Below, in pieces: positions 13,570-62,250 of a DNA stretch of 64,000 bases. The translations under genes were made by a program, and so were the position numbers. Origin of the DNA: Motilibacter rhizosphaerae (GTDB taxonomy: Bacteria; Actinomycetota; Actinomycetes; Motilibacterales; Motilibacteraceae); contig NZ_SGXD01000003.1 of the NCBI RefSeq assembly GCF_004216915.1, positions 628,222 to 692,221 on the forward strand. Direction: 5' to 3'. Numbering within the stretch: the stretch's first letter is position 1; each line of letters begins with the position of its first letter. The notes beneath the pieces are model-generated. The model was given only the letters and a program-made list of their open reading frames with translations, did no database searches and was not told where the DNA came from.

Positions 13570-13570
13570 G

Positions 13571-41262: not shown

Positions 41263-41910
41263 TCAGCCCTCGGTGGCGGGAGCGGCGTCGGCCTCGGCCT
41301 CGGCGTCCGGGGTCTCGCGCACGACGCCGAGCTCGGCCTCGCTGGCCGAGGTCTCGGCGTCGAGCTGCTCGGCCGTGGTCTCGCCGATGACGCTGGCGAC
41401 CAGGACCTCGCCGCCCTCGGCGAGCGTGGTGCCCTCGGGCAGCGAGAGGTCGCCGGCGTGCACCTGAGCGCCCACCTCGAGGCCCTCGACGCTGTACTCG
41501 ACCGAGGTGGGGATCGCGGACGCGGAGGTCTCGACGGTGACCGTCTGGGTGTCGACGACGAGCGTGCCGCCACCGGCGACGTCGCCCGTGCTGTGCAGCG
41601 GGACGTCGACCGTGACCGTCTCGCCGCGGTTCACGACGACGAGGTCGACGTGCTCGATGTGGCCCTTGACGGCGTCGCGCTGGACGGCCTTCGGCAGGAC
41701 CAGGACCGACTCGCCATCGAGGTCGAGGTCGAGCAGGACGTTGGCCGTCTTGAGCGCCAGCATGAGGTCGTGGCCCGGCAGGGCGACGTGGCGCGGGGCG
41801 AGGCCGTGGCCGTAGACGACGGCGGGCACCTGGTCGGCGCGGCGGGTGCGGCGGGCAGCGCCCTTGCCGAACTCGGTACGGGTCTGCGCGGAGATGCGGA
41901 TCTCGGTCAC
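41263..41910 (-). CDS. rplY: 50S ribosomal protein L25 / general stress protein Ctc
   Basis: This 215-residue protein has the N-terminal 5S-rRNA-binding L25 domain (about 4-93: ARRTRRADQVPAVVYGHG, KGHIEHVDL). The C-terminal CTC/TL5 domain follows (about 98-190: VPLHSTGDVAGGG, VEGLEVGAQVHAGDLSLPEG) and a long acidic tail (A/E/D-rich, about 190-215). This long form is common in actinobacteria. The GTG has AGGAG seven bases upstream. It ends in TGA and is followed, in the same frame and after a single codon, by pth. A TAGACT element (42033-42028 on minus) may be its -10. Confidence 0.95.
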   Translation of the reverse strand: MTEIRISAQTRTEFGKGAARRTRRADQVPAVVYGHGLAPRHVALPGHDLMLALKTANVLLDLDLDGESVLVLPKAVQRDAVKGHIEHVDLVVVNRGETVTVDVPLHSTGDVAGGGTLVVDTQTVTVETSASAIPTSVEYSVEGLEVGAQVHAGDLSLPEGTTLAEGGEVLVASVIGETTAEQLDAETSASEAELGVVRETPDAEAEADAAPATEG

Positions 41911-42159: not shown

Positions 42160-43935
42160 GTGCTCAAGCCGCGTCGCCGGACGCTCCTCGGCGCCGCCGG
42201 ACTGGTCCTGCTGGCGCTGGTCGCGGTGGGCGCCGTGCTCGGGCTGCAGCTGCGCTCGTCCGCGTCGGCGGCGCGCGACGACCTGGTCCAGGCGCGCACC
42301 GAGCTCGAGCAGGCCCGCAGCCGGGCGCTCGACGGCGACACGACGGGCGCGAGCACCGCTGTCGCCGCCGCCGCCCGGCACACCGCCGACGCGCGGCAGC
42401 GCACGGCCGGTACGGCGTGGTCGCTCGCCGCGCACCTGCCGGTCGTCGGCAGCTCGGTCACGACGGCGCGGGTGATCAGCGTCGCGGCCGACGACCTCTC
42501 CCGCCAGGTGCTGACGCCGCTCGTCGCCGCCAGCGCCGGCATCGACCCGCGCCGCCTGCGCCAGGGCGACCGGATCGACGTCGCGCCGCTGCAGCAGGTG
42601 GGTCCGCGCATCACGGCGGCCCTCGGGGCGGCCCGTACGGTCCAGGCCGCGCTCCACCGCACCCCCGACGACGCCCGCCTCGGCGCCGTGCGCGACGCCC
42701 GCACGCAGCTGCTCGGCTCGGTCGACCAGCTGGTCGCCACCCTGCGCGGCATCGACGGCGCCGCGGCGGTCCTCCCCTCCGCGCTGGGCGCGGACGGCCT
42801 GCGCCGCTGGCTCGTCGCCCTCCAGACCCCCGTCGAGGCCCGCGGCACCGGGGGCCTGCTCGGCGCAGCGGCCGTGGTCGAGGTCGACCACGGGCGCATC
42901 CACCTCGCGCGGGTCGTCATGAACGACGGCATGGACGTCCCCGACGACTCCCCCGTCGACATCGGCGCCCCCGCGGACTACCGCGCGCTGTGGGCCGCCT
43001 GGACCCCGCAGTCCGCCGGGATCAACTCGGGGGTCAGCCCGCACTTCCCGTACGCCGCGGCCACCTGGGCCGCGCTCTACCAGCGGCTCTACCACCAGCA
43101 CGTCGACGGCGTGCTCGCCCTCGACCCCGAGGTCTTCCAGTACGTCCTGCAGGCGGTCGGCACGCCCGTGACGCTGGGCGACGGGCGCGTCGTGCGCCCC
43201 GAGCAGGCCGCCGACTTCGTCCTGCGCGACCAGTACGCGCTGTACCCGCGGCTCGCCGTGCGCGACGCCCGGATCCGCGAGCTGGTCGTCACCGGCTTCC
43301 GCAGCGTGCTCGCCGGCGGCGGGGACACCGGCGCGCTCGTCTCCGCGCTGCGCCGCGCCCTCGACGAGCACCGCCTGCTCGCCGGCATGCCCGGCGACCC
43401 GGCGGTCGACCGGCGGCTCCAGGGCATGGCCATCGGCGGGGCGCTCCCCTCGAGCGCCGCCCCCGGGCTCGGGCTCGTCGTCAACGACGCGGGCGGCAGC
43501 AAGCTCGACTACTACACCGGTCGAGCGCTGCGCTGGTCGCGCGACTGCAGCGCGGGCAGCCCCTCGGCGGTCGTCCAGCTCGAGCTCAGCAGCTCCGCGC
43601 CGCGCTCGGGGCTGCCGGCGTACGTCACCTCGCGGGTGGACCCCGGCCGGCACCCGCTGGGGCAGCAGCGCGCCTTCGTCTCCTTCTACCTGCCGCAGGG
43701 CAGCCGCGTCACGGGGGCGAGCGTCGGCGGGCAGCAGGTGGCGGCCCAGCTGGGCAGCGAGCGCGGGTGGGTGGTCGCCTCGGTCGTCGTCCTGGTCGAC
43801 GCCGGCGCGCGCGTGCCCGTGCGGCTGCAGGTGCAGGGCGCCCTCGCGGCGCAGCGCCCGCGGGTGTGGGCGCAGCCTCTGGTCCAGCCACTCTCGGTCA
43901 GCACCGGCGACGCGCCGTGCACGAAGTCGTCCTGA
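42160..43935 (+). CDS. DUF4012 domain membrane protein
   Basis: This 591-residue protein has one N-terminal membrane helix (about 8-30), a short coiled coil, and a long extracytoplasmic part with the DUF4012 signatures. Those signatures are LPVVGSSVTTARVISVAADDLSRQVL, LVALQTPVEARGTGGLLGAAAVVEVDHGRI, GINSGVSPHFPYAAATWAALYQ and DGVLALDPEVFQYVLQAVG. The biochemical role of the family is not known. It recurs beside polysaccharide and cell-envelope genes, and some relatives lie next to LytR-CpsA-Psr ligases. Here it precedes a sortase-type surface protein and two glycosyltransferase fusions. The GTG start lacks a Shine-Dalgarno. Confidence 0.87.
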   Translation: MLKPRRRTLLGAAGLVLLALVAVGAVLGLQLRSSASAARDDLVQARTELEQARSRALDGDTTGASTAVAAAARHTADARQRTAGTAWSLAAHLPVVGSSVTTARVISVAADDLSRQVLTPLVAASAGIDPRRLRQGDRIDVAPLQQVGPRITAALGAARTVQAALHRTPDDARLGAVRDARTQLLGSVDQLVATLRGIDGAAAVLPSALGADGLRRWLVALQTPVEARGTGGLLGAAAVVEVDHGRIHLARVVMNDGMDVPDDSPVDIGAPADYRALWAAWTPQSAGINSGVSPHFPYAAATWAALYQRLYHQHVDGVLALDPEVFQYVLQAVGTPVTLGDGRVVRPEQAADFVLRDQYALYPRLAVRDARIRELVVTGFRSVLAGGGDTGALVSALRRALDEHRLLAGMPGDPAVDRRLQGMAIGGALPSSAAPGLGLVVNDAGGSKLDYYTGRALRWSRDCSAGSPSAVVQLELSSSAPRSGLPAYVTSRVDPGRHPLGQQRAFVSFYLPQGSRVTGASVGGQQVAAQLGSERGWVVASVVVLVDAGARVPVRLQVQGALAAQRPRVWAQPLVQPLSVSTGDAPCTKSS

Positions 43936-44029: not shown

Positions 44030-44677
44030 ATGATCAGCAGTCGAGCTCGGCTCGCAGTGGCGGGGACGCTCGTGGTGGTGGGTGCGGCGGTCCCTGCGAC
44101 CGCGCGCGCGGCGTACGTCCCGACGACGTCGCCGCAGGTCACCTGCAACGACAGCACGAAGACCGTCGTCGTGAGCGGCTTCTCGCCGACCTCGAGCGTG
44201 ACCGTCAGCGTCAAGGGGGCGACGCAGACCGTCACCACCGACGCGTCGGGCACCGCGGGCATCCCGGTCGCCGGCAAGGACCTGAGCGGCAGCACGCTGA
44301 CCGCGACCGGGCCCACGCCGCCGAGCGACACCAGCGCCACGGTCTCCTACACGGTCCCGGCCGGCCAGTGCGCCCTTCCGGCGCCCGCGCCGTCGCCGAG
44401 CGACGTCGTGGCCAGCGACACGCCCACGACCTCCGCCTCGACCGCGCCGACGAGCTCCGCCTCGGCCGAGCCGACGGAGAGCACCGCCTCCGACAGCCCG
44501 TCCAGCGCCCCGCTGGTGAGCAAGTCGGCCGAGCAGAGCCCGGCGGCCCTCCCGGCCCACGGCGCCCTGGCGCACACCGGTGGCGGCAACGCCCTCGCCC
44601 TCGGTGGCGTGGGCGCGCTGCTCCTCCTCCTGGGCGCCGGCACCGCCCTCCTCGCGGCGCGGCGCCGCCGGGCCTGA
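44030..44677 (+). CDS. surface protein with Ig-like domain and LAHTG sortase signal
   Basis: This 215-residue protein has a signal peptide (about 1-28, ending ATARA) and a small beta-rich domain of about 85 residues with two cysteines (VTCNDST ... AGQCALP) that may be disulfide-bonded. A Ser/Thr/Pro/Ala-rich stalk (about 115-178) follows, then LAHTG at 180-184, a hydrophobic stretch of about 26 residues and an RRRR tail. LAxTG plus this tail is the signal recognised by class E sortases of high-GC actinobacteria, so the protein should be linked to peptidoglycan. The ATG has GGGGGA five bases upstream. A TACGGT at 43967-43972 is a possible -10. Ligand or function is unknown. Confidence 0.88.
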   Translation: MISSRARLAVAGTLVVVGAAVPATARAAYVPTTSPQVTCNDSTKTVVVSGFSPTSSVTVSVKGATQTVTTDASGTAGIPVAGKDLSGSTLTATGPTPPSDTSATVSYTVPAGQCALPAPAPSPSDVVASDTPTTSASTAPTSSASAEPTESTASDSPSSAPLVSKSAEQSPAALPAHGALAHTGGGNALALGGVGALLLLLGAGTALLAARRRRA

Positions 44678-44973: not shown

Positions 44974-47343
44974 GTGGGGACGGACGGCGCGGCGCAGGAG
45001 CGTGCGCAGGCACCCGGGGGGAGCTGGGGCAGCACGACCAGCAGCGCAGCGCGGCTGCGCCCGGTGCTCGTGGGGATGAGCTGGGACACCCCCGGCGGGC
45101 TGACCCGCTACCTGCGCGACCTGCACGGCGCCCTCGAGGCCGCCGGCGCCGCCCCGCGGGTGCTCGTCCTGGCGCCCGCCACGGAGGCGCCCGCCTCCGC
45201 GCGGGTCGTCGGCGACGAGACCGCGCCCCTGGCGCAGCGGCTGCGCGGCTATGCCCGGGCCGCCGCCCGCGAGGACGCCGGGGTCGTCGACGCGCACTTC
45301 GCGCTGTACGCCGCCTGGCCGGTCCTCGCCGGCGCCTGGCGCCGCCGCCCGCTCGTCGTGCACTTCCACGGGCCGTGGGCCGACGAGTCCCTCGCCGCCG
45401 GCACCCGGCAGGGCGCCGCCGTGCGCGCGAAGCGGGCCCTCGAGGGCGCGGTCTACCGCCGGGCGCGCCGCCTCGTCGTGCTCTCGACCGCCTTTGCCGA
45501 CCTGCTCGTCGAGGGGTACGGCGTGGACCGCGAGCGCGTCCACGTCGTCCGCCCGGGCGTCGACCTCGAGCGGTTCACCCCCGACCACGAGGGCGCCCGC
45601 GAGCGGCTCGGCCTCAGCGGCCCCGTCGTCGTCAGCGCCCGGCGCCTCGTGCCGCGGATGGGCCTCGACGTGCTGCTCCGCGCGTGGGCGCAGCTCCCGC
45701 CCCCGCCCGGCGCGACCCTCCTGCTCACGGGCGAGGGGCCCGAGGCGCCCGCGCTCGCGGCGCTGGCCGCCGAGCTGGGCGTCTCCGGCAGCGTGCGGCT
45801 GCTCGGCCGGGTCACCGAGGAGCACCTCGTCGACCTCTACCGCGCCGCCGACGCGTGCGTGCTGCCCTCGCTCAGCCTCGAGGGGTTCGGGCTGGCCGCG
45901 GTCGAGGCGCTCGCGACCGGGACGCCCGTGCTCGTCACCGCGGTCGGCGGGCTGCCCGAGGTCGTCGAGGGGCTGGAGGGCGGCCAGCGCACCGGCCTCG
46001 TCGTGCCGCCCGGGGACGTGGCGGCGCTCGCCGAACGGCTGCGCGCCGCGCTCGTGGGCGACCTGCCCTCGCGGGACGCGTGCCGGGCGCACGCGGAGAC
46101 CTTCAGCTGGGCGCGCGCGGCGGAGGAGAACCTCGCGGTCTACGCCCTGGCCGCGGACGAGGCGGCGGGGACTGCGGCGCGCACCGCGGCGGCCAGCGCC
46201 GGTCCCGGCGACCGGCCGCTGCGCGTGACCTACCTCGACCACTGCGCGGCGCTGTCCGGCGGCGAGATCGCCCTGCTGCGCATGCTCGAGTCGCTCGACG
46301 GGGTCGAGCGCCACGTCGTGCTCGGCGAGGACGGCCCGCTCGTCCCGCGGTTGCGCGCCGCGGGCATCCGCGTCGACGTGCGCCCGATGGCCGAGGACGC
46401 CCGCGGGCTGTCCCGCGACCGCGTCGGCGGCCGGCTGCCGGTGGCGAGCGCGGTGGGGACCGCGGCGTACGTCCTCCGCCTCGCCCGCGAGCTGCGCGCC
46501 GAGCGGCCCGACCTCGTCCACACGAACTCGCTGAAGTCCGCGCTCTACGGCAGCCTCGCCGCGCGGCTCGCCGGCGTCCCCGTCGTCTGGCACGCGCGCG
46601 ACCGGGTCGCCGACGACTACCTGCCCGGCCCTGCCGTGCGCCTCGTGCGCACCGCGGCGCGCTGGCTGCCCTCAGCGGTGCTCGCCAACAGCGACGAGAC
46701 CCTGCGCACCCTCGGACCGCTGCGGCGGCCGGCGCGGGTCGTGCCGGACCCGTACCAGCCGAGCGTCGCCGCGACCGCCCGCGGCGGCGACGGACCGCTC
46801 GTCGTGGGCATGGTCGGCCGGCTGGCGCCGTGGAAGGGCCAGCACGTCTTCCTCGAGGCCTTCGCCGCGGCCACGGCGGGCAGCGCGCACCGCGCGGTCC
46901 TCCTCGGCACGGCGATGTTCGGCGAGGACGACTACGTCGCGCGGCTGCACCGCGACGTCGAGCGGCTGGGCATCGCCGACCGCGTGGAGTTCCGCGGCTT
47001 CCGCGAGGACGTCGAGGGCGAGCTCGCGGGCTTCGACGTGCTCGTCCACGCCTCCGTCACGCCGGAGCCGTTCGGCCAGGTCGTCGTCGAGGGGATGGCC
47101 GCCGGCCTGCCCGTCGTCGCCACCGCCGCGGGCGGGCCGGCCGAGATCATCACCTCCGAGCGCGACGGGCTGCTGGTCGCGCCCGACGACGCCGTGGCGC
47201 TCGCCGCGGCGCTCACCCGCCTGCTGGACGACCCCGGGCTGCGGACGCGGCTCGGCAGCGCCGCCCGCGCGCGGGCGGCCGACTTCGCACCGGAGGTCCT
47301 CGCCCCGAGGGTCCTCGAGGTCTACCGGGAGGTCCTCGCGTGA
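44974..47343 (+). CDS. fused double glycosyltransferase (GT4-GT4)
   Basis: This 789-residue protein is two complete GT-B enzymes in one chain. The first (about 28-405) has VLVGMSWDTPGGLTRYLRDL, VVVSARRLVPRMGLDVL and LPSLSLEGFGLAAVEALATG. The second (about 411-789) has VTYLDHCAALSGGEIALLRML, VVGMVGRLAPWKGQHVFLEA and TPEPFGQVVVEGMAAG, each with its own E-x7-E pair. Only a short Ala-rich linker separates them, and they are clearly different GT4 types, not a recent duplication. The GTG start has GGGAG eight bases upstream. Its stop overlaps the next start as GTGA. The enzyme could add two sugars in sequence to one acceptor. Confidence 0.9.
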   Translation: MGTDGAAQERAQAPGGSWGSTTSSAARLRPVLVGMSWDTPGGLTRYLRDLHGALEAAGAAPRVLVLAPATEAPASARVVGDETAPLAQRLRGYARAAAREDAGVVDAHFALYAAWPVLAGAWRRRPLVVHFHGPWADESLAAGTRQGAAVRAKRALEGAVYRRARRLVVLSTAFADLLVEGYGVDRERVHVVRPGVDLERFTPDHEGARERLGLSGPVVVSARRLVPRMGLDVLLRAWAQLPPPPGATLLLTGEGPEAPALAALAAELGVSGSVRLLGRVTEEHLVDLYRAADACVLPSLSLEGFGLAAVEALATGTPVLVTAVGGLPEVVEGLEGGQRTGLVVPPGDVAALAERLRAALVGDLPSRDACRAHAETFSWARAAEENLAVYALAADEAAGTAARTAAASAGPGDRPLRVTYLDHCAALSGGEIALLRMLESLDGVERHVVLGEDGPLVPRLRAAGIRVDVRPMAEDARGLSRDRVGGRLPVASAVGTAAYVLRLARELRAERPDLVHTNSLKSALYGSLAARLAGVPVVWHARDRVADDYLPGPAVRLVRTAARWLPSAVLANSDETLRTLGPLRRPARVVPDPYQPSVAATARGGDGPLVVGMVGRLAPWKGQHVFLEAFAAATAGSAHRAVLLGTAMFGEDDYVARLHRDVERLGIADRVEFRGFREDVEGELAGFDVLVHASVTPEPFGQVVVEGMAAGLPVVATAAGGPAEIITSERDGLLVAPDDAVALAAALTRLLDDPGLRTRLGSAARARAADFAPEVLAPRVLEVYREVLA

Positions 47344-49415
47344 GTCCGAACACCCTGGCTCCGCAGGACGCGGGAGCTCGGACCATCAGCGTCGTCGTGC
47401 CGAGCTACCGGCGCCCCGACCTGCTCGTCCGCTGCCTCGACGGGCTGCTGGCGCAGGACCGGCCGGCCGACCAGGTCGTCGTCGTGCGCCGGGACACCGA
47501 CGAGGAGACCCGGACCGCCCTCGAGGCGTACGTCGGGCGGGTCGACGTCGCCGTCGTCGCCGAGCCCGGCGTCCTCGCGGCCATGGCCCGCGGCGTCGAC
47601 GCCGCGACCGGCGACGTCGTGGCCTTCACCGACGACGACGCGGTCCCGCGCCCCGACTGGCTGGCCACCCTGCTGCCGCACTACGACGACGCGCAGGTCG
47701 GCGGCGTGGGCGGGCGCGACGTGAACCACCCCGCGCCCGACGAGCCGGCCCGTACGGTCGCGGGCGCGGGGCGCTTCACCGCGTGGGGCGGCCTGCTCGG
47801 GTTCCACCACGTGGTCGAGGGGCCGGCCGGCGACGCCGACGTGCTCAAGGGCGTCAACATGTCGTTCCGCCGCCCGGCGCTCGCGCTGCCCCTCTCGCTG
47901 CCCGGCTCCGGCGCCCAGGTGCACTTCGAGGTCGCGACCTCCCTGCACGCGCGCACCCTCGGCTGGCGGCTCGTGCTCGACCCCGCCGCGGTCGTCGACC
48001 ACTACCACGGCCCGCGCTTCGACGAGGACCAGCGCCACCGCCCGCAGCCCGTCGCGGTGCGCAACGAGGCGTACAACCTCGTGCTCTGCCTGCTGTCCTA
48101 CCGCCCGGAGCTGCTCGTGCGGCGCGCGGCGTTCGGCCTGCTGGTCGGCGACAGGGCCACGCCGGGGCTGCTCCGCGCCGCGGCCGCCCTGGCGCGCCGC
48201 GACCCCGCCACGGCCGCGCGCCTGCTGCCCTCGCTGCGCGGCCAGCTCGCGGCGCTGCGCGACGTGCGCCGCGGCGTCCGGCCCGAGATGCCCGCGGGGA
48301 CGAGCGCGGCTCCCGAGGACCGCTCGACGGCGCCGCTCGCCACGCTGCCCCGCCTGCGCATCCTCCACGTCCTCAACGACGTCGAGGAGCTCGGCAACGG
48401 CATCAACAACGTCACCGTCGACCTCGCGTGCGCGCAGGCCGACGCCGGGCACGAGGTCACCGTCGCCTCGCAGGGCGGGGGCTGGGCCCGGGTGCTCGAG
48501 CAGCACGGCGTGCGCCTGGCCGCGCTCGACCAGCGCCGCCGCTCGCCGTCCTTCGCGCTGGCGCCCGCACGGCTGCGGCGCATCGTGGCCCGGGTCCGCC
48601 CCGACGTCGTGCACGCCCACAACGTGACCGGCGTGCTGCTGGCGCGCGCCGCGCTCGCCGGCACCCGCGTCCCGCTCGTTGCCACCGTGCACAACGAGGG
48701 CCCCGAGGCGAAGCTCATGCGCTACGCCTCCGCCTCGATCGTGCTGAGCGAGGCCGGCCGCCAGCACCTGCTGTCGCAGGGCTTCCCCGCCCAGCGGATC
48801 CGGGTGCTGCGCAACGGCACCGTCGACGGCGCCCGCAGCCGGTCGCGCGAGCCCCTCCCGCCGCGCGGGCTGGCGCACCCCAACGTCGTCACGGTCTGCG
48901 GCATGAACAAGCGCAAGGGGATCCAGGACCTGCTGGCGGCGCTGCCCGCCGTCCGCGCGGCCGTCCCCGGCACCGTCCTCTACCTCGTGGGCGACGGCCC
49001 GGACCGCGAGGAGTTCGAGCGCCAGGCCGAGCAGCTCGCGCTCGGCGACGCCGTGGTCTTCGAGCGGTTCCAGCCGCGGCCCGACGCGTGGCTGGCCGAG
49101 GCCGACGTCTTCGTGCTCGCGAGCCACCACGAGCCCGGCGGGCTCGTGCTCGCCGAGGCTCGCGAGGCCGGCTGCCCGATCGTGGCGACGGACGTGGCGG
49201 GCAACCCCAACATGCTCGACGGCGGCCGCGCTGGCCTGCTCGTGCCGCCCGGCGAGCCGGAGGTGCTCGCCGCAGCCGTCGTGCGCGTGCTCAGCGAGCC
49301 CGGTCTCGCCGACCAGCTGCGCGCCGCCGCCCGCGAGGGCGTCGAGGACCTCACCGTCGGCCGGCTGGCCGACGACGTGGAGCGCGTCTACCGGGGACTG
49401 CTCGCCGGGCGCTGA
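47340..49415 (+). CDS. fused double glycosyltransferase (GT2-GT4)
   Basis: This 691-residue protein joins a GT2 domain (about 14-240) to a GT4 domain (about 335-691). The GT2 domain has ISVVVPSYRRPDLLVRCLDGLL, FTDDDAVPRPDW with the metal-binding Asp run near 95-99, and LKGVNMSFRR. The GT4 domain has LRILHVLNDVEELGNGINNV, VVTVCGMNKRKGIQDLLAAL and ASHHEPGGLVLAEAREAG. The region between (about 240-330) is helical and Arg/Ala-rich. The GTG overlaps the stop of the GT4-GT4 gene as GTGA with GGGAGG upstream. The two proteins carry four glycosyltransferase domains and may together build a tetrasaccharide or a branched unit. No flippase or polymerase adjoins them. Confidence 0.9.
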   Translation: MSPNTLAPQDAGARTISVVVPSYRRPDLLVRCLDGLLAQDRPADQVVVVRRDTDEETRTALEAYVGRVDVAVVAEPGVLAAMARGVDAATGDVVAFTDDDAVPRPDWLATLLPHYDDAQVGGVGGRDVNHPAPDEPARTVAGAGRFTAWGGLLGFHHVVEGPAGDADVLKGVNMSFRRPALALPLSLPGSGAQVHFEVATSLHARTLGWRLVLDPAAVVDHYHGPRFDEDQRHRPQPVAVRNEAYNLVLCLLSYRPELLVRRAAFGLLVGDRATPGLLRAAAALARRDPATAARLLPSLRGQLAALRDVRRGVRPEMPAGTSAAPEDRSTAPLATLPRLRILHVLNDVEELGNGINNVTVDLACAQADAGHEVTVASQGGGWARVLEQHGVRLAALDQRRRSPSFALAPARLRRIVARVRPDVVHAHNVTGVLLARAALAGTRVPLVATVHNEGPEAKLMRYASASIVLSEAGRQHLLSQGFPAQRIRVLRNGTVDGARSRSREPLPPRGLAHPNVVTVCGMNKRKGIQDLLAALPAVRAAVPGTVLYLVGDGPDREEFERQAEQLALGDAVVFERFQPRPDAWLAEADVFVLASHHEPGGLVLAEAREAGCPIVATDVAGNPNMLDGGRAGLLVPPGEPEVLAAAVVRVLSEPGLADQLRAAAREGVEDLTVGRLADDVERVYRGLLAGR

Positions 49416-49437: not shown

Positions 49438-49478
49438 GTGATCATGCACGTCCTGGGTCCCACGACGTGCATGATCAC
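49438..49478. repeat. AT-rich perfect palindrome with 14-base arms
   Basis: gtgatcatgcacgt (49438-49451) and its exact reverse complement (49465-49478) flank 13 bases. The arms are about 50 % AT in a background near 25-28 % AT. It could be a regulator-binding or REP-like intergenic repeat. It is followed at once by an ordinary GC-rich terminator, so it is probably not needed for termination. Confidence 0.6.
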
Positions 49479-49486
49479 CGGCAGAT

Positions 49487-49532
49487 GACGAGAGGACCCG
49501 GTCGCCCCCTGGGGCGGCCGGGTCCTCTCGTC
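49487..49532. terminator. bidirectional terminator between GT2-GT4 and the secreted glycosidase
   Basis: A 15-base-pair perfect stem (49487-49501 with 49518-49532) continues inward through further C/G pairing to a tiny loop. It lies between the converging genes ending at 49415 and 49563. Confidence 0.8.
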
Positions 49533-49562: not shown

Positions 49563-52025
49563 TCAGGCCCCGTGCACGGTGCGCGTGACGCGGACCGCAG
49601 CGGCCTTCGTCTTGGCCTTGGCCCCCGCCTTCGCCGTCGCCTTGGGGGCGACGCTGCGCTTGTCGGCGAGCGCGACGGCGACCGCGGTGGTGTCGACCGT
49701 GAGCTTCGCGTCCGCCCAGTCGGCGTGGTCGAAGGCCGTGCCGTCACCGGCGTCGGTCACGACCAGCCGGACCGAGCGCAGGCCCGTGACGTTCGCCGTG
49801 ATGGTGCGGGGAGTCGAGCTGCCCGTCACGACGCCGGAGTCGGCGATCTTGGTCGAGCCGTTCCACACCTGGAAGTCGACCGAGCCGTTCGCGCCCACCT
49901 CGTCGTCGACGCCGACCTTGGCGCTGAACGTGTGGCCGCCCGTCGTCGGGACGACGATCTCGGAGCCGGCGTGCACGCCCAGGCCCGTCGCGTACGTCGT
50001 GCCGCCGATCGTCAGCGTGCGCCCGTCCCCGAGGGCGCCCTCGCCGTTGCTGCGGTCCTTCTCGACCGGGCCCCACCCGTTCTGCACCGTGGTCCAGCCG
50101 AGGCTGCTCACGGCCACCGTGGCGGTGGTCGGCGCCGGGGTGCTCAGCACCGGGCTCGCCCAGTCGGCGTGGTCGTTGTTGCGCCCGTCACCGGCGTCGG
50201 TCACGACGAGGCGGACCTGCTTGAGGCCGCGGACATCGGCGGTGAGCGTCTTGGCGGCCGCGCCGCCCCTCAGCACGCCGGAGTCGGCGATCTTGGTCGA
50301 GCCGTTCCAGACCTGGAAGTCGACCGAGCCCTTGGTCCCCGACTCGGCGTCGACGCCGACCTTGGCGGAGAAGGTCGCGGCACCGCCGACCGGGACGACG
50401 ACCTCCGAGGGGGCGTGGACGCCGAGGCCCTTGCTGAAGGTCTTGCCGGCGATCGTCAGCGTGCGGCCGTCACCCGCGGCGGCCTCGCCGTTGCTCCGGT
50501 CCTTCTCGACCGGGCCCCAGCCGTTGGCGACCTGGGTCCACGCGGTGCGCGACACCTCGGTGGTCGTGGTGGAGCCGCTCACCGGAGGAGCGGAGGCCGG
50601 CGGGGCGGTGGTGGGCGCCGTGGGAGCCGCGGTCGGCGTGCTGGGCGCGGGGGCGGAGGCGACCGGAGGAGCCGGGGCGACCACGGGCGGAGCGGCGACC
50701 GGCGGGGCCGGGGCGACCGGAGGCGCCGCAGGGGCCGAGGCGGTCGGCGCCGACGACGGGTCGATCTTGATGATCGCCGTCGAGGTGGACGAGTCCAGCG
50801 TCACGCTCTGCGTGGAGCTCGCGGAGGAGAGGGGCGCCGTCCCCGAGTTCGGGCGGTAGACCGCGACATCGGCCGGCCCGTCGAGGCGCACGGTCACGCT
50901 GGTGCTCGGCGGGTTCAGCACCGAGGAGCCGTTGAACTGCGGCTGCTGCTGCCACACCGCGAGGTAGAACGTGCCGTCGCGCTTCTCGAGCAGCAGGGAG
51001 CGCGTCGAGCTGTCGCCACCGTCGATCGAGTAGTCCAGCGCGCCCGGCGTGAAGGCCGGGCCCTTGTCGGTGAGCAGGCCGATCATGCTCTGCAGCGCGG
51101 TGTACGACGGCTTGGGGGTGCCGTCGTAGCGCAGCAGGCCGAAGTTGGACTCGAACAGCGGGTCGCGGAACTGGTCGAGCAGCTCGTAGGTGAACGTGCG
51201 GGAGATGCCGCCCGCGTAGTGCTCGAGGAAGAGCCGGGGCAGTGTCGTCGCGACCTGCGCCTCGGGCATCGTCGCGTACGGCGCCTGCTGGGTGCCGGTG
51301 GAGAAGCCCGTCTCCGTCGCGACGACCGGCTTGCCGGGGGCGACGATCGACCAGTTCCGCTTGACCGTGCCGATGATCTGGTCGGTCATCTCGTACTGGT
51401 TGCCGGGGTAGTCGTGGCTCGTGCCGGCGTCGACGTACGCGGACAGGTCGCCGAGCGCCTGGTACTTCGAGGTGTCGTTCGTGTCGGCGAACGACGGGGC
51501 GAGCACGGGGATGCTGCGCGTCGCCGGGTCGCCCTTGACCGCCCGCGAGACCTGGATCGTCCAGTTGCGGGCGTACGCCGCCCAGTCGCCGCCCTGCGTG
51601 TCCCACTCGTTGAGCGACTCGACCGCGTCCGCGCCGGGGACCAGCTGGTTCTTCACCATGTCCTTGAGGGCGGCGGGAGTCGCGTTCTGGCGGGGGTCCA
51701 TCACCATCGTCACGCCGATGCCGTACTTCTGCAGGCGGTTGCGCACGAAGTCGCTCGCGTAGGCGGAGCCGGTGCCCCAGCCGTCGCGGATGTGGCGCAC
51801 GCCCAGGTCGGCGAGGCGCTTCTCGACCATGTCGTAGTTGCCGTACGGCGTGTTCGTGTAGGTGAGGTGCGTGGCCACACCGATCGAGTCGACGAAACCA
51901 TCAGCGGAGAGCGCCTGGTGCGCCGGGAGGACAGCAGCAGAGGCGTTCGCCGGAATGGCGACGAGGGCCGCGGCAGAAGCAGCGACAGCGGCAGCGGCCG
52001 TCGTCAGTGCACGAGTGCGGAGCAT
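49563..52025 (-). CDS. secreted TIM-barrel glycoside hydrolase with two NPCBM domains
   Basis: This 820-residue protein has a signal peptide (about 1-30, cleavage near ASA). Its catalytic barrel (about 38-430) resembles GH39/GH5-like clan A enzymes: the acid/base candidate is Glu 140 in SLNEWD and the nucleophile candidate is Glu 238 in VVATETGFS. After a Pro/Ala/Val-rich linker (about 430-500) come two NPCBM-type carbohydrate-binding modules (about 510-635 and 650-775). They share near-identical openings (NGWGPVEKDRSNGE) and VDFQVWNGSTKIADSG segments, suggesting recent duplication. The tail is Lys/Ala-rich. It probably cuts or remodels the polysaccharide of region B outside the cell. ATG start; the AGGAAG is rather far (12 bases). 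It follows the related membrane-anchored enzyme. Confidence 0.87.
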   Translation of the reverse strand: MLRTRALTTAAAAVAASAAALVAIPANASAAVLPAHQALSADGFVDSIGVATHLTYTNTPYGNYDMVEKRLADLGVRHIRDGWGTGSAYASDFVRNRLQKYGIGVTMVMDPRQNATPAALKDMVKNQLVPGADAVESLNEWDTQGGDWAAYARNWTIQVSRAVKGDPATRSIPVLAPSFADTNDTSKYQALGDLSAYVDAGTSHDYPGNQYEMTDQIIGTVKRNWSIVAPGKPVVATETGFSTGTQQAPYATMPEAQVATTLPRLFLEHYAGGISRTFTYELLDQFRDPLFESNFGLLRYDGTPKPSYTALQSMIGLLTDKGPAFTPGALDYSIDGGDSSTRSLLLEKRDGTFYLAVWQQQPQFNGSSVLNPPSTSVTVRLDGPADVAVYRPNSGTAPLSSASSTQSVTLDSSTSTAIIKIDPSSAPTASAPAAPPVAPAPPVAAPPVVAPAPPVASAPAPSTPTAAPTAPTTAPPASAPPVSGSTTTTEVSRTAWTQVANGWGPVEKDRSNGEAAAGDGRTLTIAGKTFSKGLGVHAPSEVVVPVGGAATFSAKVGVDAESGTKGSVDFQVWNGSTKIADSGVLRGGAAAKTLTADVRGLKQVRLVVTDAGDGRNNDHADWASPVLSTPAPTTATVAVSSLGWTTVQNGWGPVEKDRSNGEGALGDGRTLTIGGTTYATGLGVHAGSEIVVPTTGGHTFSAKVGVDDEVGANGSVDFQVWNGSTKIADSGVVTGSSTPRTITANVTGLRSVRLVVTDAGDGTAFDHADWADAKLTVDTTAVAVALADKRSVAPKATAKAGAKAKTKAAAVRVTRTVHGA

Positions 52026-52236: not shown

Positions 52237-53538
52237 TCAGTGCGTGAGGTGGAGCAGGACGACCTGGTCCGGGACGCTCAGGTCCAGCGCTGAGCGGTCC
52301 TCCAGGCGCTGCTGGGGGCTGGTCCCGCCGAAGGTCGGCGAGAGCACGTCGACGTCGTACGGGCCGCCGAGCGAGACGTGGACGGGAGCGCTGGTCTCCA
52401 CGTCGCGGCCGTCCGCGAAGCTCTTCACCTCGAGCCAGAGCGCGACGTACCAGGAGCCGTCCCGGTCGTCGTACAGCGTCGTCGAGCGCAGCGCCGCCGT
52501 GCCGTCGACGGTCACGTCGGGGACGGGGACCGTGCTGCGCCGGCCCTTGTGGCCGAGCACCTGGACGAGCGAGCGGACCGCGGAGAACGCGGGCTTGCGC
52601 GAGCCGTCCGCGCGCAGGAAGAGGTCCCAGTCGTCCATGCCGACGTCGTAGAGGTAGAGCCGCTGGACGCCGGCGGCGTAGTAGTCGAACAGCTGGCGCA
52701 GCGCGTACTTCGCGCTCGCGCGCTCCGAGACGCCGCCCTGTCCGGTGCACCCGTGCGGCCGCAGGTCGTTGCAGTAGCCGGACTCCGTGGCGACCACCTT
52801 CCCGCTGCGGCAGAGCAGGCTGGAGTCGGGGATCCACATCGAGCCGAGCTTGTCGTCGGGGAGGTTCTCCGACCCCGGGTAGCTGTGCATCGCGGCGGCG
52901 TCGCAGTCGACCCGCCCCAGGGCGTTGGACCGCTTGGCATCGGCGAGGGCGGGACTCAGCACCTGCAAGGAGCGCACCTGCTCCTGGAGCTTCGAGTCAT
53001 CAGAGCGGAATCCCTTGACTCCCGACCAGATCTCGCGCTGGAAGGTCTGCACTCCACCGGGAAATGCCTGCCCGTCATAGCTCAGCTGCGGATTGGCATC
53101 CCATTCATTGGGGCCTTCCACACCGTCGAGAGCGTGAAGGACGGGAAGCACTCCGTCCTTCACCACCGAATTCCCGGAATAGCCGTCGCGGGGGTCGAGG
53201 ACCATCATCGAGGTGATGCCGAACGAGTGGTAGAGGTCGAGCACCTTGTCCTGGAACTCGCGACCGGAGCCGCCCACCCGGACGTGCTTCACCCCCAGAT
53301 CGCCGAGCACCGCGCGCATCTGCGGGTAGTGCTGGGCGGAGTAGACGAGCTGCGCGGCGACACCGATGGAGTCGAGGAAGCGGCTGGTCGTGTCGTGCGT
53401 CGGCGGTGCCGGCACCTCGTCGCGCCGGTGGGAGCGCACACCGACGGCGAGGGCGAGGCAGAGGGCGACGACGACGACCGGGACGAGCAGCGCGGAGGAG
53501 GGACGACGGGGGCGCGTCCCCCGGTGCCACGGAGCCAC
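52237..53538 (-). CDS. membrane-anchored TIM-barrel glycoside hydrolase
   Basis: This 433-residue protein has a basic N-terminus and one membrane helix (about 14-34), then a catalytic domain clearly related to the secreted enzyme at 49.6-52.0 kb. Shared landmarks are RFLDSIGVAAQLVY, LGDLGVKHVRVGG, the acid/base candidate Glu 145 in GPNEWD, HSYPGSENLP, and VVATESGYCND with the nucleophile candidate. It lacks carbohydrate-binding modules. The GTG start has GGGGAGGA about six bases upstream and lies after the polymerase stop with a short overlap-like arrangement. A segment at 52981-53160 has lower GC than its surroundings. Such enzymes beside wzy often act as glycanases that control polymer length or release. 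Confidence 0.86.
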   Translation of the reverse strand: MAPWHRGTRPRRPSSALLVPVVVVALCLALAVGVRSHRRDEVPAPPTHDTTSRFLDSIGVAAQLVYSAQHYPQMRAVLGDLGVKHVRVGGSGREFQDKVLDLYHSFGITSMMVLDPRDGYSGNSVVKDGVLPVLHALDGVEGPNEWDANPQLSYDGQAFPGGVQTFQREIWSGVKGFRSDDSKLQEQVRSLQVLSPALADAKRSNALGRVDCDAAAMHSYPGSENLPDDKLGSMWIPDSSLLCRSGKVVATESGYCNDLRPHGCTGQGGVSERASAKYALRQLFDYYAAGVQRLYLYDVGMDDWDLFLRADGSRKPAFSAVRSLVQVLGHKGRRSTVPVPDVTVDGTAALRSTTLYDDRDGSWYVALWLEVKSFADGRDVETSAPVHVSLGGPYDVDVLSPTFGGTSPQQRLEDRSALDLSVPDQVVLLHLTH

Positions 53539-53551
53539 AGCACGTCCTCCC

Positions 53552-54991
53552 CTAGACCAGCGTGCGGCTCCTTCGCCCCTGCTCGGCCAACGATGCCCCA
53601 GCAACGGGGGTTCCGCTCCCGCGCACGCGCGACAGCAGTGCCAAGAGCACCCAGAAGAGGACGCCCGGTGCTCCCGTCAGGGGGTTGCCGAGCAGCAGCT
53701 GCACCAGCAGCCCGGCCACCGCGGCGCCGCAGGCCACGAGGAAGTCGTCGTCGGACTCCCGCGCTCGTCGCCAGGCCGCGCACACCGCGAGGAGCAGCAC
53801 GACGAGCAGCACCAGCCCCAGCGGCAGGCCGTAGGTGTAGAGCACCTCGAGCAGCCCCGAGTCGAACGTGCCCGCCGCGCCCGGCTTCCCCTGGGCGTTG
53901 CTGAGCTTCGTGCTGACGCCCGTGGAGCCCAGCCCCTTGCCGGTGGCCGAGCCCAGGACGACCGGCAGCGTCTTGCGGTAGACGTCGGTGCGGTCGTTGA
54001 GGCTCTTGTCCTTGCCGCCGGACTGGTAGGAGTTGGCGACCCGCTCCCCGATCGCCTCGCCCACGGGGCCCCCGACGAACGCGAGGCCGACGACCGTGAG
54101 GGTCGCCGCCAGCACGATCGCCACGAGCGCGCGGGTGCGCCCGGCGCGGGCGAGCGCCCCGACGGCGATGACGATGCCCAGCCAGGCGGTGCGGACGAGG
54201 GAGAGGCCGATGCCGACGACCCCGGCGGCCGTGGCGAGGGCGCGCCCCCGGCTGCGCGCTCCGGCGAGCACCATGATGAGCAGCGCGCCCAGCACCGCGC
54301 CGTACGGGTTGGGCGAGTTGAGCGTGCCGAAGACGCGCACCTGGAACGGGTGCGGGTTGCCGATCGAGTTGATCGGCGCGTTGCGCATCCAGAACGCGTC
54401 CCACTCGGGCAGCACGAGGAACTGCACCAGGCCGTACGCGCCGAGCACGATCGCGCCCCACAGCGCGGTGCGCTCGAGCGCCCGGCGCAGCACCGGGGTC
54501 TCGGGGCCGGCTCCCGCCGCCCACGCGCCCACGAGGACCGGCGGCAGCCAGTCGAGCAGGCCGCCGAGCGCGGGGGCCTTGCCGTTGACGAGGGCTCCGG
54601 TGACGAAGGCGAAGACCACCGCCGTGAGCGCCGTGGCCAGGGCGCGGGTCATGTCCGGCGCCACGCGGCGGTGCGCGCGCAGGGCGGGGACGAGGCACAC
54701 GCAGCTGGCGACGGGCATCGCGAGCATGACGGTGCTCTTCGGCGTCCAGCCGACCCCGAAGTCCACCACCCGGCGCATCTCCGGGCCGAGGAACCACAGC
54801 CAGAGCGTGAACACGAGGAAGTCCGCGGTCTCCCGCCGCCGCAGCAGCAGCGCGCAGCAGACGACGGCACCGGCGGGGTACGCGTAGGCCACCAGGCGGC
54901 CCTGGTGCAGCACGAACGCGGCCAGGAAGCAGACGGCGTGGAAGCCGACCACCCACGCCCAGACCGGCAGTCGCCCGCCCGGGGCGCGCAC
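53552..54991 (-). CDS. O-antigen ligase/polymerase (Wzy-like) membrane protein
   Basis: This 479-residue protein has about 11-13 hydrophobic helices from residue 10 on, and the Wzy/ligase landmarks GNPHPFQVRVFGTLNSPNPYGAVLG, SLVRTAWLG and NDRTDVYRKTLPVVLGSATGKGLGSTGV, with GLLEVLYTYGLPLGL in the last loop. It would polymerise the region B repeat unit. The GTG start has only a GAGG very close to it, but no ATG or TTG is available and a strong hairpin lies upstream between it and the Wzc-like gene. A CTG at about 55079 is a remote alternative. It is followed by the membrane glycosidase gene. Confidence 0.87.
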   Translation of the reverse strand: MRAPGGRLPVWAWVVGFHAVCFLAAFVLHQGRLVAYAYPAGAVVCCALLLRRRETADFLVFTLWLWFLGPEMRRVVDFGVGWTPKSTVMLAMPVASCVCLVPALRAHRRVAPDMTRALATALTAVVFAFVTGALVNGKAPALGGLLDWLPPVLVGAWAAGAGPETPVLRRALERTALWGAIVLGAYGLVQFLVLPEWDAFWMRNAPINSIGNPHPFQVRVFGTLNSPNPYGAVLGALLIMVLAGARSRGRALATAAGVVGIGLSLVRTAWLGIVIAVGALARAGRTRALVAIVLAATLTVVGLAFVGGPVGEAIGERVANSYQSGGKDKSLNDRTDVYRKTLPVVLGSATGKGLGSTGVSTKLSNAQGKPGAAGTFDSGLLEVLYTYGLPLGLVLLVVLLLAVCAAWRRARESDDDFLVACGAAVAGLLVQLLLGNPLTGAPGVLFWVLLALLSRVRGSGTPVAGASLAEQGRRSRTLV

Positions 54992-55083: not shown

Positions 55084-56853
55084 CTAGCCCCCGGTCGGGC
55101 TCGGCGCCGAGCCGCGCTGGCCGGCGGCGTCGCCGCTGCCGGGGTCGAGGTCGTGCTGCCCGGCCGGGCGGTGGTCAGCGGTCCGGTGGTCGACCACCCG
55201 GTGGTCGTGCGCCAGGGCCTCGACCGTCCGCTGCTCGACGGTCTGGGGCTCCGGGCGCGCGCTCGAGCGGGCGTCGTCGGACGCCCGTTGCCGGGTGGAC
55301 CGGTCCTCGTAGTAGGGCGCGAACGAGCCCTTCTCGAGCCGGGCCTTGTTGGCGACGACGCCGAGCACGCGCGCCGGGATCGGCGCCACGACGGTCGACA
55401 GGCGCGCCAGCGCGCGGCGCCGCGAGGAGGTCATGGACGCGACCAGCAGGACGTTGCCGACCTTCGGGGCGAGCACGGCGGCGTCGGTGACGGCGAGCAG
55501 CGGGGAGGCGTCGATGACGATGACGTCGAAGCGCTCCTCGAGCAGCGCGAGCACGTCGTCCATGCGCCCCGAGCCGAGCAGCTCGACGGGGTTGGGCGGG
55601 CAGGCGCCGGCCGGGAGCAGGGAGAGCCCCTCCTGGCGGGTGGCGACGACCGCCGAGCCGACGGCGCTGGCGAGCTGCTCGCGCCGGGCGGAGTCGCTGC
55701 CCGCCGTGAGGCGCAGGGCGAGGACCCCGGACAGGCCCGGGCTCGGTGCGGTGCCGGCGAACAGCGCCTCGAGCCGCGGGCGCCGCAGGTCGCCCGAGAC
55801 GACGACCGTGCGCAGCCCGGCCTGGGCGAAGGTGAGCGCCAGGTTGGCGGCGGTGACCGTCTTGCCCTCGCCCGGCATCGCGCTGGTGACGAGCAGCTTG
55901 GAGACCGGCTGCTCGATGCCGAGGAACGTGATGTTCGTGCGCAGCGCCCGCGTCGCCTCGGCGAAGGTGCCCGAGGAGTCCGCCAGCGCCGCGACGTAGC
56001 GCTCCCGCTTGGCGGTCTTGCGGTCGCGCGGGATCTCGCCGAGCACGGGGACGCCGAGGATGTCCTCGAGCTCCTCGCGCGAGCGGAGCCGGTCGTCGAG
56101 CTGCTCGCGGAGGAACGCCGCACCGAGTCCCAGCACCAGGCCGAACAGCGCGGCGAGGACGATCTCGGTCTTCAGCGAGAGCCCCGTGGGCGACCCCGGA
56201 CCGTCGGCGGGCCCGACGAGCTGGGCTCCGCCCTTCTTCATGCCGGCGTCGATCGTGAGGTCCTGCTGCTTGGAGAACAGCGCGGTGTACTGCGCGATCG
56301 CGGCTTGGAGGGCGGCACTGTTGGCCGTGCCCTTGGAGGCGTTCTGCAGGGCGGTGATCTGCGTGGAGAGCGTGTCCAGCTCGCGCCCGATCCCGTCGGC
56401 GGCCGTCTGGAGCGACTGCTGGGCCTGGGTCTTGTTGTACTGGATGTACGCCCGACCCACCGCGTTGGCAGCGTCGGTCGCCTTGAGGGCGTCGGTCGAG
56501 GTGACCGTGATCTCGACGGTGTCCGCAGAGTCGTCCGCGACGACGGAGAGGTGCCGGCGCAGGTCGTTGACAGGCAGCCCCGCGTCGCGCGCGGCGGCGG
56601 AGACCACCTGCGGGCTCATCATCACGCTGAGCTGGCCCGCCTGGTAGCGGACCGGGTCGGTCGTGTCCCCGGTGTCGCTCGAGACGCCGCGCTCGGAGAG
56701 GTCGTTCGGGAGCAGGAGCACCTGCGCGGTGGAGGAGTAGACGGGGACGGCGCGCTCGTGCGCCAGCACCCCGAGCGGGACGCACACCAGCAGGGCGATG
56801 AGGACGTAGCCCCACCGTCGCCGGACGACCCCCAGGTAGCTGCTGAGACTCAC
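55084..56853 (-). CDS. Wzc/CpsCD-like polysaccharide co-polymerase with ATPase (BY-kinase-like) domain
   Basis: This 589-residue protein combines a Wzz domain with an ATPase. It has a membrane helix at about 14-32, a YSSTAQVLL beta segment, a coiled coil and a second helix at about 227-247. The ATPase is of the bacterial tyrosine-kinase type: Walker A in AMPGEGKT near 325-332, Walker A' in GDLRRP near 351-356 and Walker B in VIVIDASPL near 437-445. It would regulate polymer length and export with the Wzy encoded next. The usual C-terminal tyrosine cluster is absent: one YY pair is followed by a tail of about 80 residues rich in His, Asp and Arg. The GTG start has GGGGAGGAGGAG directly upstream. 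Confidence 0.9.
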   Translation of the reverse strand: MSLSSYLGVVRRRWGYVLIALLVCVPLGVLAHERAVPVYSSTAQVLLLPNDLSERGVSSDTGDTTDPVRYQAGQLSVMMSPQVVSAAARDAGLPVNDLRRHLSVVADDSADTVEITVTSTDALKATDAANAVGRAYIQYNKTQAQQSLQTAADGIGRELDTLSTQITALQNASKGTANSAALQAAIAQYTALFSKQQDLTIDAGMKKGGAQLVGPADGPGSPTGLSLKTEIVLAALFGLVLGLGAAFLREQLDDRLRSREELEDILGVPVLGEIPRDRKTAKRERYVAALADSSGTFAEATRALRTNITFLGIEQPVSKLLVTSAMPGEGKTVTAANLALTFAQAGLRTVVVSGDLRRPRLEALFAGTAPSPGLSGVLALRLTAGSDSARREQLASAVGSAVVATRQEGLSLLPAGACPPNPVELLGSGRMDDVLALLEERFDVIVIDASPLLAVTDAAVLAPKVGNVLLVASMTSSRRRALARLSTVVAPIPARVLGVVANKARLEKGSFAPYYEDRSTRQRASDDARSSARPEPQTVEQRTVEALAHDHRVVDHRTADHRPAGQHDLDPGSGDAAGQRGSAPSPTGG

Positions 56854-57290
56854 GCTCCTCCTCCCCTACGCGCGACCGACGGGCGCGCCGGGCGGTCCCG
56901 GCGGCCGACCTGCCGGGGGCGCCTGGGCGCTGCGCTCCCCATCGGCCGCACGCACCCACATCGCAGTATTCCACCCGTACCAGTCGGGCGAGGACGCTCC
57001 GCGGACCCTCCCCTGACCGGAGCAGGCGCGCCGTGCCCCGACGCGCTACGCGGTCGTGGCCTCCCGGACACGTACGCCCGTCCCAGGCTGCCGGGTTGTT
57101 GCGAAGGGGTGAAATCCCCCTCGCCGCGTCCGTGGTCCGGCGCGATCTGGTTCCATGGGAGTTCGCCATGGCGGGGGGGCCGCCTGCGAGGACGCCGGCG
57201 GGCACCCGCGGGGGTCCGCAGCGGCAGGAGGGTGAGGGTCATGCTGGCAGCAGTGCCGGAGCGGCGTGCTCAGCGGGGACCGGTGGGCGC
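56854..57290. other. divergent control region of polysaccharide region B
   Basis: This 437-base region between the Wzc-like gene (minus) and the GT2 gene (plus) has no supportable gene. It has AT-richer patches: aatact on the minus strand near 56966-56971, a possible -10 for the Wzc-like operon, and ttgttgcgaaggggtgaaat around 57095-57114, which includes a gggg-tgaaat-cccc mini-hairpin and may belong to the plus-strand promoter. An in-frame ATG at 57168 with GGGAG six bases upstream could start the GT2 protein 41 residues earlier. Confidence 0.55.
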
Positions 57291-58238
57291 ATGAGCGGCG
57301 ACCGCACGTCGCACGGGAGCGCGACCGTGCCGCTGCTCACGCTCGCGATCCCGACGTACAACCGGGCACCCCAGCTCGACGAGCTGCTCGCCCACCTCGT
57401 GGCCGAGCTCGCTCCCGTCGACGTGGCGTGGGAGCTCGCGGTCCACGACAACGCCTCGACCGACAGCACCTCCGAGGTCGTCGAGCGCTGGCAGCGCAAG
57501 GTCGGCGAGGAGCGCTTCCGCTACGTCCGCCACCAGCGCAACACCGGCGGCATCGCCAACCTCGTCTCGACGCTCGAGCTGGCCCGCGGCACCTGGGTCT
57601 GGACCCTGGGCGACGACGACGTGCTCCACCCCGGCTGCGTCGCCGAGGTCATCCGGATCGTCCAGGAGCAGCCGGACCTCGCCCTGCTGTTCCTCAACTT
57701 CTGCGGCCGCAACGGCATCACCGGCGAGATGACCAAGCCGCACTACTTCGACACGGCGGCCGCCGGTCGCACCGAGGACGGCCGCGCCGCCTTCATGCAC
57801 CAGTTCGCCCACGACATGGGCAGCGTCATCTTCCTCACGGCCTGCATCTACCGCACGGACTACGCCCAGCAGGCGGTCGCCTCCTGGCAGGGCTCGCTGG
57901 ACAACTGGGCGCTCGCCGCCTACCTCACCGGCGCCACCGCCGCCCACGGGCCGGTCCTCGTGACCGAGCGCAACTGGGTCGACTGCATCGAGGCGGTCAG
58001 CTCGTGGATGCAGCAGAAGGGCCTCTGGGCCAAGATCCAGTACCACGACGTCCCCGTCGCGATGAGCGCGCTCGTCGGCCAGGGCTACCCCGTCGAGTGG
58101 TGCCGTCGCATGGGCCTGCACCTGCTCACCCGCCCGTTGTCACCGAAGGCGCTCGTGCGCCACGTGCGCGCCGCCTACTACTACCCGCGCTACCTGCGCG
58201 CGCTGCCGCGCGTGCTCTTCCTGAAGGAGGCGTCATGA
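57291..58238 (+). CDS. GT2 family glycosyltransferase
   Basis: This protein of about 315 residues has the GT-A N-terminus LLTLAIPTYNRAPQLDELL, HDNASTDST, NTGGIANLVSTLELARG and TLGDDDVLHPG with the metal-binding DDD. FGHMG-type motifs are absent, but ERNWVDCIEAVSSWM lies near the C-terminus. It resembles transferases that act early on lipid-linked sugars. The ATG at 57291 begins just before conserved sequence but has a weak ribosome site. ATG at 57168 has a better site but would add 41 low-complexity residues. Its stop overlaps the next start as ATGA. It is the first gene of the plus-strand operon of region B. Confidence 0.88.
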   Translation: MSGDRTSHGSATVPLLTLAIPTYNRAPQLDELLAHLVAELAPVDVAWELAVHDNASTDSTSEVVERWQRKVGEERFRYVRHQRNTGGIANLVSTLELARGTWVWTLGDDDVLHPGCVAEVIRIVQEQPDLALLFLNFCGRNGITGEMTKPHYFDTAAAGRTEDGRAAFMHQFAHDMGSVIFLTACIYRTDYAQQAVASWQGSLDNWALAAYLTGATAAHGPVLVTERNWVDCIEAVSSWMQQKGLWAKIQYHDVPVAMSALVGQGYPVEWCRRMGLHLLTRPLSPKALVRHVRAAYYYPRYLRALPRVLFLKEAS

Positions 58239-61708: not shown

Positions 61709-62250
61709 TCTTCACGCAGACGGCGCTCGCGGGCGCCACCATCATCGACCTCGAGCGGCGCGAGGACGAGCGCGGCTTCTTCGCGCGCACCTTCTGCCGC
61801 AAGGAGTTCGCGGACGCCGGGCTCGACCCGATGGTCGAGCAGTGCAACCTGTCCTACAACTACAAGGCCGGGACGCTGCGCGGCATGCACTACCAGGTCG
61901 CGCCCGCCGAGGAGGCGAAGCTCGTGCGCTGCACGAGCGGCGCCATCCTCGACGTCATCGTCGACATGCGCCCCGACAGTCCGACGCACCTGCAGCACAT
62001 CGCGGTCGAGCTCACCCAGCAGAACCGCCGCGCGCTGCTCGTGCCGCCGATGTTCGCGCACGGCTACCTCACCCTGACCGACGACGCCGAGGTCGTCTAC
62101 CAGGTGAGCGAGACCTACACCCCGGGCACCGAGCGCGGCCTGCGCTACGACGACCCGGCGCTGGGCATCGACTGGCCGGTCGAGGTCGCCGTCATCAGCG
62201 CCAAGGACGCGGCCTGGCCGCTGCTCTCGGAGCAGGGGATCTCGGCGTGA
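61705..62250 (+). CDS. RmlC-like nucleotide-sugar 3(,5)-epimerase
   Basis: This 181-residue cupin has the RmlC landmarks: RGFFARTFCRKEF, QCNLSYNYKAGTLRGMHYQ with the base His 62, EAKLVRCTSGAILDVIVDMR, FAHGYLTL and VYQVSETYTPGTERGLRYDDPALGIDWP. It is shorter and clearly different from RmlC at 16.8 kb, so it probably acts on another nucleotide 4-keto sugar, possibly at only one carbon. The GTG overlaps the epimerase stop as GTGA, and its own stop overlaps the next GTG in the same way. Confidence 0.9.
   Translation: MIFTQTALAGATIIDLERREDERGFFARTFCRKEFADAGLDPMVEQCNLSYNYKAGTLRGMHYQVAPAEEAKLVRCTSGAILDVIVDMRPDSPTHLQHIAVELTQQNRRALLVPPMFAHGYLTLTDDAEVVYQVSETYTPGTERGLRYDDPALGIDWPVEVAVISAKDAAWPLLSEQGISA

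Follow-up and report, generated by a model that had tools for sequence, protein, structure and literature searches.

The heterocyst envelope polysaccharide (HEP) of Anabaena PCC 7120 is associated with an island, alr2825-alr2841, and with the adjacent genes hepB (alr3698) and hepE (alr3699), and expression work has grouped the HEP island and hepB together (PMC4390870). Alr3699 is HepE, described as a glucosyltransferase of HEP synthesis (title of Wang 2016, doi 10.1093/glycob/cwv167, cited in PMC5792488), and the lengths of hepB (1170 nt) and of alr2836, alr2837, alr2839 and alr2840, together with a 120-nt gap and a 1-nt overlap, are given in PMC2211374. The Anabaena genes are separate, dispersed and single-domain; they include the HepA ABC transporter and, in the island, the sugar-transferase gene hepC. 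A literature search of open papers found no report of HEP genes outside cyanobacteria. Among actinobacteria, the exopolysaccharide (EPS) locus of Bifidobacterium longum 105-A has, alongside genes for a priming transferase, Wzz and glycosyltransferases (GT), one for a DUF4012 protein (PMC5412050), an arrangement that we liken to the present locus by description; the four-domain set considered below is not reported there.

We analyzed a 64,000-nt stretch of the Motilibacter rhizosphaerae genome (the window), in which two overlapping genes encode four GT domains. Our main reading, to which we give a probability of roughly 85% on sequence comparisons, is that these domains are four repeat-unit transferases of a Wzx/Wzy-dependent EPS system homologous to Anabaena HEP and to a cluster of Paenibacillaceae. 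This reading links an actinobacterial EPS island to the genetically studied heterocyst envelope system.

Results

Two overlapping genes encode four intact glycosyltransferase domains

P0001 (44974..47343, plus strand, 789 aa) is a GT4-GT4 fusion recognized by Pfam, a GT4 tree and a PDB match, and P0002 (47340..49415, plus strand, 691 aa) is a GT2-GT4 fusion recognized by Pfam, relatives in 80 loci and trees. In P0001, a HepB-like part, A1 (residues 1-395), is joined by a linker at about 389-412 to a HepE/Alr3699-like part, A2 (405-789); in P0002, an Alr2840-like GT2, B1 (1-315), is joined by a linker at about 306-337 to B2 (336-691), a GT4 of a clade near HEP genes. Pfam recognizes two complete GT4 units in P0001, and a GT2 at 16-228 followed by a GT4 at 353-666 in P0002, all far above the cut-offs. 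The genes overlap as GTGA, with the GTG start of P0002 at 47340 and the TGA stop of P0001 at 47341-47343, so that open frames and Pfam together confirm the first-pass annotation of two coupled genes with the order GT4-GT4, then GT2-GT4. Similarity of P0001 to its relatives sets in near residue 30, which leaves its start codon uncertain. Third-position GC stays at 0.92-1.00 across both linkers, so the fusions look genuinely coding rather than like bridged stops. No NCBIfam family scores above its cut-off for either protein, and hence no name can be derived from NCBIfam.

The halves are dissimilar, as had been noted: A1 against A2 gives 34.7 bits, with the likeness confined to the region of the nucleotide-binding motif. 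Family alignments bear out the claim that every half has kept its catalytic signature, namely, E303-x7-E311 and R224/R228 in A1, E698-x7-E706 and K621 in A2, D98-D100 and E197 in B1, and E598-x7-E606 and K526 in B2 (E598 being taken from the sequence itself); no half has lost these residues. The earlier proposal of four sugars fits four complete transferases, which could plausibly add up to four sugars of one unit.

The four domains occur as separate, clustered genes in other phyla

When P0002 was scanned against about 85,000 prokaryote genomes, the matches lay mostly in cyanobacteria and Paenibacillaceae, and the relatives were compared in 80 loci. For the search for relatives, P0001 and P0002 were each cut into their halves; when single-domain relatives were aligned jointly with P0001 or with P0002, both kinds of relatives fell on the first half. 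A1, A2, B1 and B2 are each found as separate genes elsewhere, often within one cluster. All four lie as separate genes within about 20 kb in 11 of the 80 loci, an arrangement that the first-pass annotation had named, if coupled with an unrelated order, as one that would count against a dedicated four-sugar machine, and 14 further loci have A1, A2 and B1, the A2 count being made with a loose threshold that admits the sister clade of A2 too. The A1 scores are bimodal (179-222 bits versus at most 97 for the rest), as are those of B1 and B2. In the GT4 tree, A1, A2 and B2 fall inside the matching clades (SH-aLRT 99, 99 and 100, respectively; 91 for the HepE subclade), and in its own tree B1 groups with Paenibacillaceae proteins with moderate support. 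These observations support the view that each of the four domains is a member of a set clustered together in other phyla, an enzyme set common to three phyla.

Three of the domains match heterocyst envelope genes

Among solved structures, A2 comes closest to Alr3699 (PDB 4xso, 150 bits), against which the cyanobacterial A2 gene scores 619 bits, and A2 falls in the HepE-containing clade of the GT4 tree. The counterparts of HepB, Alr2840 and Alr2841 were assigned from gene position and length (PMC2211374). The cyanobacterial A1 gene lies directly upstream of the A2 gene and has the same length as HepB. A1 is 34% identical over 370 aa (195 bits) to the cyanobacterial gene at the HepB position, lies within the clade of HepB-position genes and is fused to A2 in the order in which hepB and hepE adjoin each other in Anabaena. 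In a Nostoc parmelioides locus (L090), gene lengths of 969/975/1146/948 nt, a 120-nt gap and a 1-nt overlap reproduce alr2836/2837/2839/2840, which makes B1 the counterpart of Alr2840 and the next gene, a Wzy, the counterpart of Alr2841. The Wzy of the window (53552-54991) is 29% identical over 459 aa (190 bits) to this Nostoc protein. Three of the four domains therefore match heterocyst coat genes in cyanobacteria. The tie of B2 to HEP is one of neighborhood only: in a Calothrix locus (L124) some 5 kb separate it from the HepB gene, and Trichormus and Brasilonema have it in their combined clusters. We found no experimentally studied relative of B2, which gains a place in a pathway from the present comparison.

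Homologs of HepB, HepE, Alr2840 and the Alr2841-position Wzy are thus shared with Anabaena, at about 29-42% identity between HEP and island proteins. The differences are also clear. Paired fusions are found here whereas the Anabaena genes are single-domain and dispersed; the island has a Wzx flippase whereas Anabaena has HepA; and DUF4012, the LAxTG protein and the glycosidases described below are present here and not in Anabaena HEP. The Bac_transf priming enzyme of the island is likened to the hepC product by description. No ABC transporter was matched by Pfam among the island open reading frames scanned, and since a HepA-type transporter is missing, we call the system HEP-like rather than HEP. 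With identities of only 29-34% to HepB and to the Alr2841-position Wzy, the product may differ in its sugars and linkages. The hormogonium (hps) system was dropped as a further comparison, the similarity to HpsN and HpsE being weak.

The pair lies in a polysaccharide island between rplY and prs

The island extends from window position 41911 to about 71020 and is flanked by two housekeeping genes, rplY (ribosomal protein L25/Ctc; 41263..41910, minus strand) and prs (L014:7021-7998, at window position about 71021, 7.0 kb past the window end). In relative G003, rplY and prs adjoin each other with a 235-bp gap. The congener (G001) has about 3 kb between them, in which a priming transferase was all that was detected, and that genome gave no strong match to P0001 or P0002 and no match to DUF4012. 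In relative G002 the distance is about 42 kb and DUF4012 comes first, and in relative G004 DUF4012 adjoins rplY and a fusion with a HepE-type domain lies 16 kb further in. Within this bacterial family, the rplY-prs junction thus varies in its polysaccharide genes.

The first island gene beside rplY encodes a DUF4012 protein (42160..43935, plus strand; Pfam), in the same place in two family members. It is followed by a gene for a small Ser/Thr/Pro-rich protein (44030..44677, plus strand) whose sequence ends in an LAHTG-type C-terminal sorting signal, NCBIfam NF058582 scoring below its cut-off. The first-pass annotation had looked to co-occurrence of the pair with DUF4012 and LAxTG genes. DUF4012 is found in EPS neighborhoods in the other actinobacterial loci examined. 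For the LAxTG protein, no relative was detectable in the compared loci, a comparison weakened by its low-complexity sequence.

Just past the P0002 stop lies a 41-bp palindrome (49438..49478), GTGATCATGCACGTCCTGGG...ACGTGCATGATCAC, with 8 exact-arm copies in the genome against 0 for a reversed control pattern; a second strong hairpin follows at 49489-49530. The palindrome may be a terminator-type or REP-like element, and the hairpins at 49438-49530 probably mark the end of both convergent units. The opposing minus-strand unit encodes a secreted protein with a glycosidase-like N-terminal part and two NPCBM domains (49563..52025; Pfam), a likewise secreted, glycosidase-like paralog of that N-terminal part (52237..53604; 133 bits), a Wzy_C protein homologous to the HEP-island gene at the Alr2841 position (53552..54991; PF04932 above cut-off) and a Wzz/Wzc-type co-polymerase with a tyrosine autokinase (55084..56853; TIGR01007, 144 bits versus a cut-off of 108). 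The glycosidase part of the 49563-53604 proteins has no Pfam match, and the shorter paralog has no PDB match. Since the PF04932 family also holds ligases, we infer rather than observe the Wzy polymerase function. On the plus strand follow a GT2 (57033..58238; Pfam, weak similarity to HpsE), a Wzx-type flippase (58693..60468), a nucleotide-sugar epimerase/dehydratase (60683..61708; Pfam) and a DRL-type oxidoreductase (61842..63536). The flippase matches PF01943 with 36.1 bits (cut-off 28.2), is the reciprocal-best partner of the Wzx of Paenibacillus glacialis (110 bits) and scores below cut-off for PF13440, 7-fold weaker than the flippase of the other polysaccharide cluster in the window. A priming phosphoglycosyl transferase (PF02397, 222.7 bits) is inside the island at L014:3620-5257, and the island carries two more GT4 and two GT2 genes besides the pair.

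The pair had been placed away from flippase and polymerase genes, which is wrong: the Wzy_C gene lies 4.1 kb downstream, with the co-polymerase and the flippase beyond it. The island Wzy matches 67 of the 80 loci and is found at most 500 bp from a B1 homolog in 51 of them, whereas the Wzy, Wzx and Wzz of the other window cluster (4654-11077) match none of the 80. Reciprocal-best comparison with a Paenibacillus glacialis cluster yields partners for eight proteins of the island (A1, A2, B1, B2, Wzy, the kinase, Wzx and the GT4 at L014:5501) and for none of the other polysaccharide cluster of the window. The proximity of Wzy to B1 and the P. glacialis partners indicate that the pair belongs with the downstream Wzy and Wzx genes. 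The P. glacialis and Cohnella loci (L018, L024, L029 and L043) are each a single compact cluster, holding reciprocal-best partners of as many as eight island proteins. Their A1, B1 and B2 are single-domain, and the A2 of Cohnella and of some Paenibacillus is joined to another GT4. These clusters gave no DUF4012 match, and we found no experimental study of them. A GT4 of the other window cluster (12373-13629) takes a basal position in the HepB-like clade and is a possible paralog of A1.

Unfused relatives and other fusions of the domains

A1 and A2 are adjacent, unfused and in the same order in five actinobacterial genomes (G117, G145, G148, G202 and G314), likely the state before fusion. The B1 of G145 has a very long branch and was left out as proof of an unfused set in actinobacteria. 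When about 400 genomes of the class were searched with each protein, no other genome showed the A1-A2 or the B1-B2 fusion; P0002 was also run against about 400 genomes of the phylum and gave no other B1-B2 fusion, and B1 and B2 share a frame in none of the 80 P0002 loci and are not direct neighbors in the other loci seen. The domain order, which the first-pass annotation had suggested looking for in other genomes, recurs elsewhere for A1-A2 and not for B1-B2. A GT2-GT4 frame in L082 was left uncounted as a parallel fusion: its similarity to B1 ends at residue 232, which suggests a frameshift.

Fusions with other partners do occur. In relative G004, in the DUF4012 island next to rplY, a different GT4 is fused ahead of the HepE-type domain (P0003; L010:1489-3957), in Cohnella and Paenibacillus the partner of A2 is a relative of the GT4 at L014:5501, and a GT4-B1 fusion is present in Calothrix/Nostoc (L067 and L075). 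The M. rhizosphaerae genome itself has at least two further GT4-GT4 frames on contig C1, L147:1001-3376 (791 aa) and L146:751-3492 (913 aa), so that double transferases are not rare in it.

Discussion

Because the separate-gene relatives of the pair lie in cyanobacterial and Paenibacillus-type slime-polysaccharide clusters, we suggest that M. rhizosphaerae probably secretes a related polysaccharide, made by enzymes that are fused in pairs. Judging from the gene content, the priming enzyme would place the first sugar phosphate on undecaprenyl phosphate, and the domains of P0001 and P0002 would make successive sugar additions at the membrane, with A2, on the model of HepE, probably adding glucose. 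Enzymes of consecutive steps may be held together by each fusion, and the two other GT4 and two GT2 proteins of the island could supply remaining sugars or side branches. Wzx would then flip the unit, Wzy and the co-polymerase would build the chain, and the polymer would end as capsule or slime.

The first-pass annotation proposed instead that the pair makes a separate glycan, for instance one attached to the LAxTG protein or one of the wall, and the Wzy_C protein could then be a protein or wall ligase. The LAxTG gene is indeed directly upstream of the pair on the same strand, the pair is a convergent unit of its own closed by strong hairpins, and PF04932, which covers O-antigen ligases too, cannot by itself tell a polymerase from a ligase. 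Wzy_C also covers O-oligosaccharyltransferases. We nevertheless consider this proposal unlikely, given that the pair shares one rplY-prs island with Wzc, Wzx, Wzy and the priming transferase, that the island Wzy goes with the domain set across phyla and that the LAxTG protein lacks detectable relatives in the compared loci, with the reservation about its composition made above. The fused proteins might also polymerize alternating sugars by themselves, without Wzy, each having two intact active sites. WbdA, a two-domain GT4 mannosyltransferase, is such a polymerase in the ABC-transporter pathway and resembles P0001 in having two GT4 modules per chain, whereas the modules here would be repeat-unit enzymes of a Wzy pathway. 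We regard a self-sufficient polymerase as very improbable, since the same domains are separate genes in Wzy-containing clusters and the island has Wzx, Wzy and Wzc, with no ABC transporter found among its scanned open reading frames.

An EPS role is also compatible with fusions that arose neutrally through a lost stop codon, without functional coupling, or with one half of a protein being only structural or regulatory. The recurrence of fusions with differing partners in G004, in Cohnella/Paenibacillus and in Calothrix/Nostoc means that fusion alone may say little. Intact signature residues in all four halves argue against a merely structural half, and since B1 and B2 are not neighbors elsewhere, their fusion took more than the loss of a stop; we see neutral fusion as a possibility of limited weight. 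Within our preferred reading of the pair as repeat-unit transferases, we tentatively propose that the fusions record which HEP-type transferases act together, HepB and then HepE, and the Alr2840-type GT2 with B2, in a two-protein, four-step line producing a tetrasaccharide backbone. If true, the order in which the transferases of the heterocyst envelope act could be read from the fusions. The fusions point to transferases that may act side by side, and two paired enzymes could prove simpler to assay than four separate ones.

With 67% identity to cyanobacterial proteins in two loci, the DRL-type oxidoreductase stands well above the other genes of the island (29-45%), a hint of strong constraint or of a separate transfer of more recent date. 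Just outside the island, a glucose-1-phosphate cytidylyltransferase-like gene (38639-39520) has relatives in two of the B1-containing clusters, L044 (50%) and L121 (37%).
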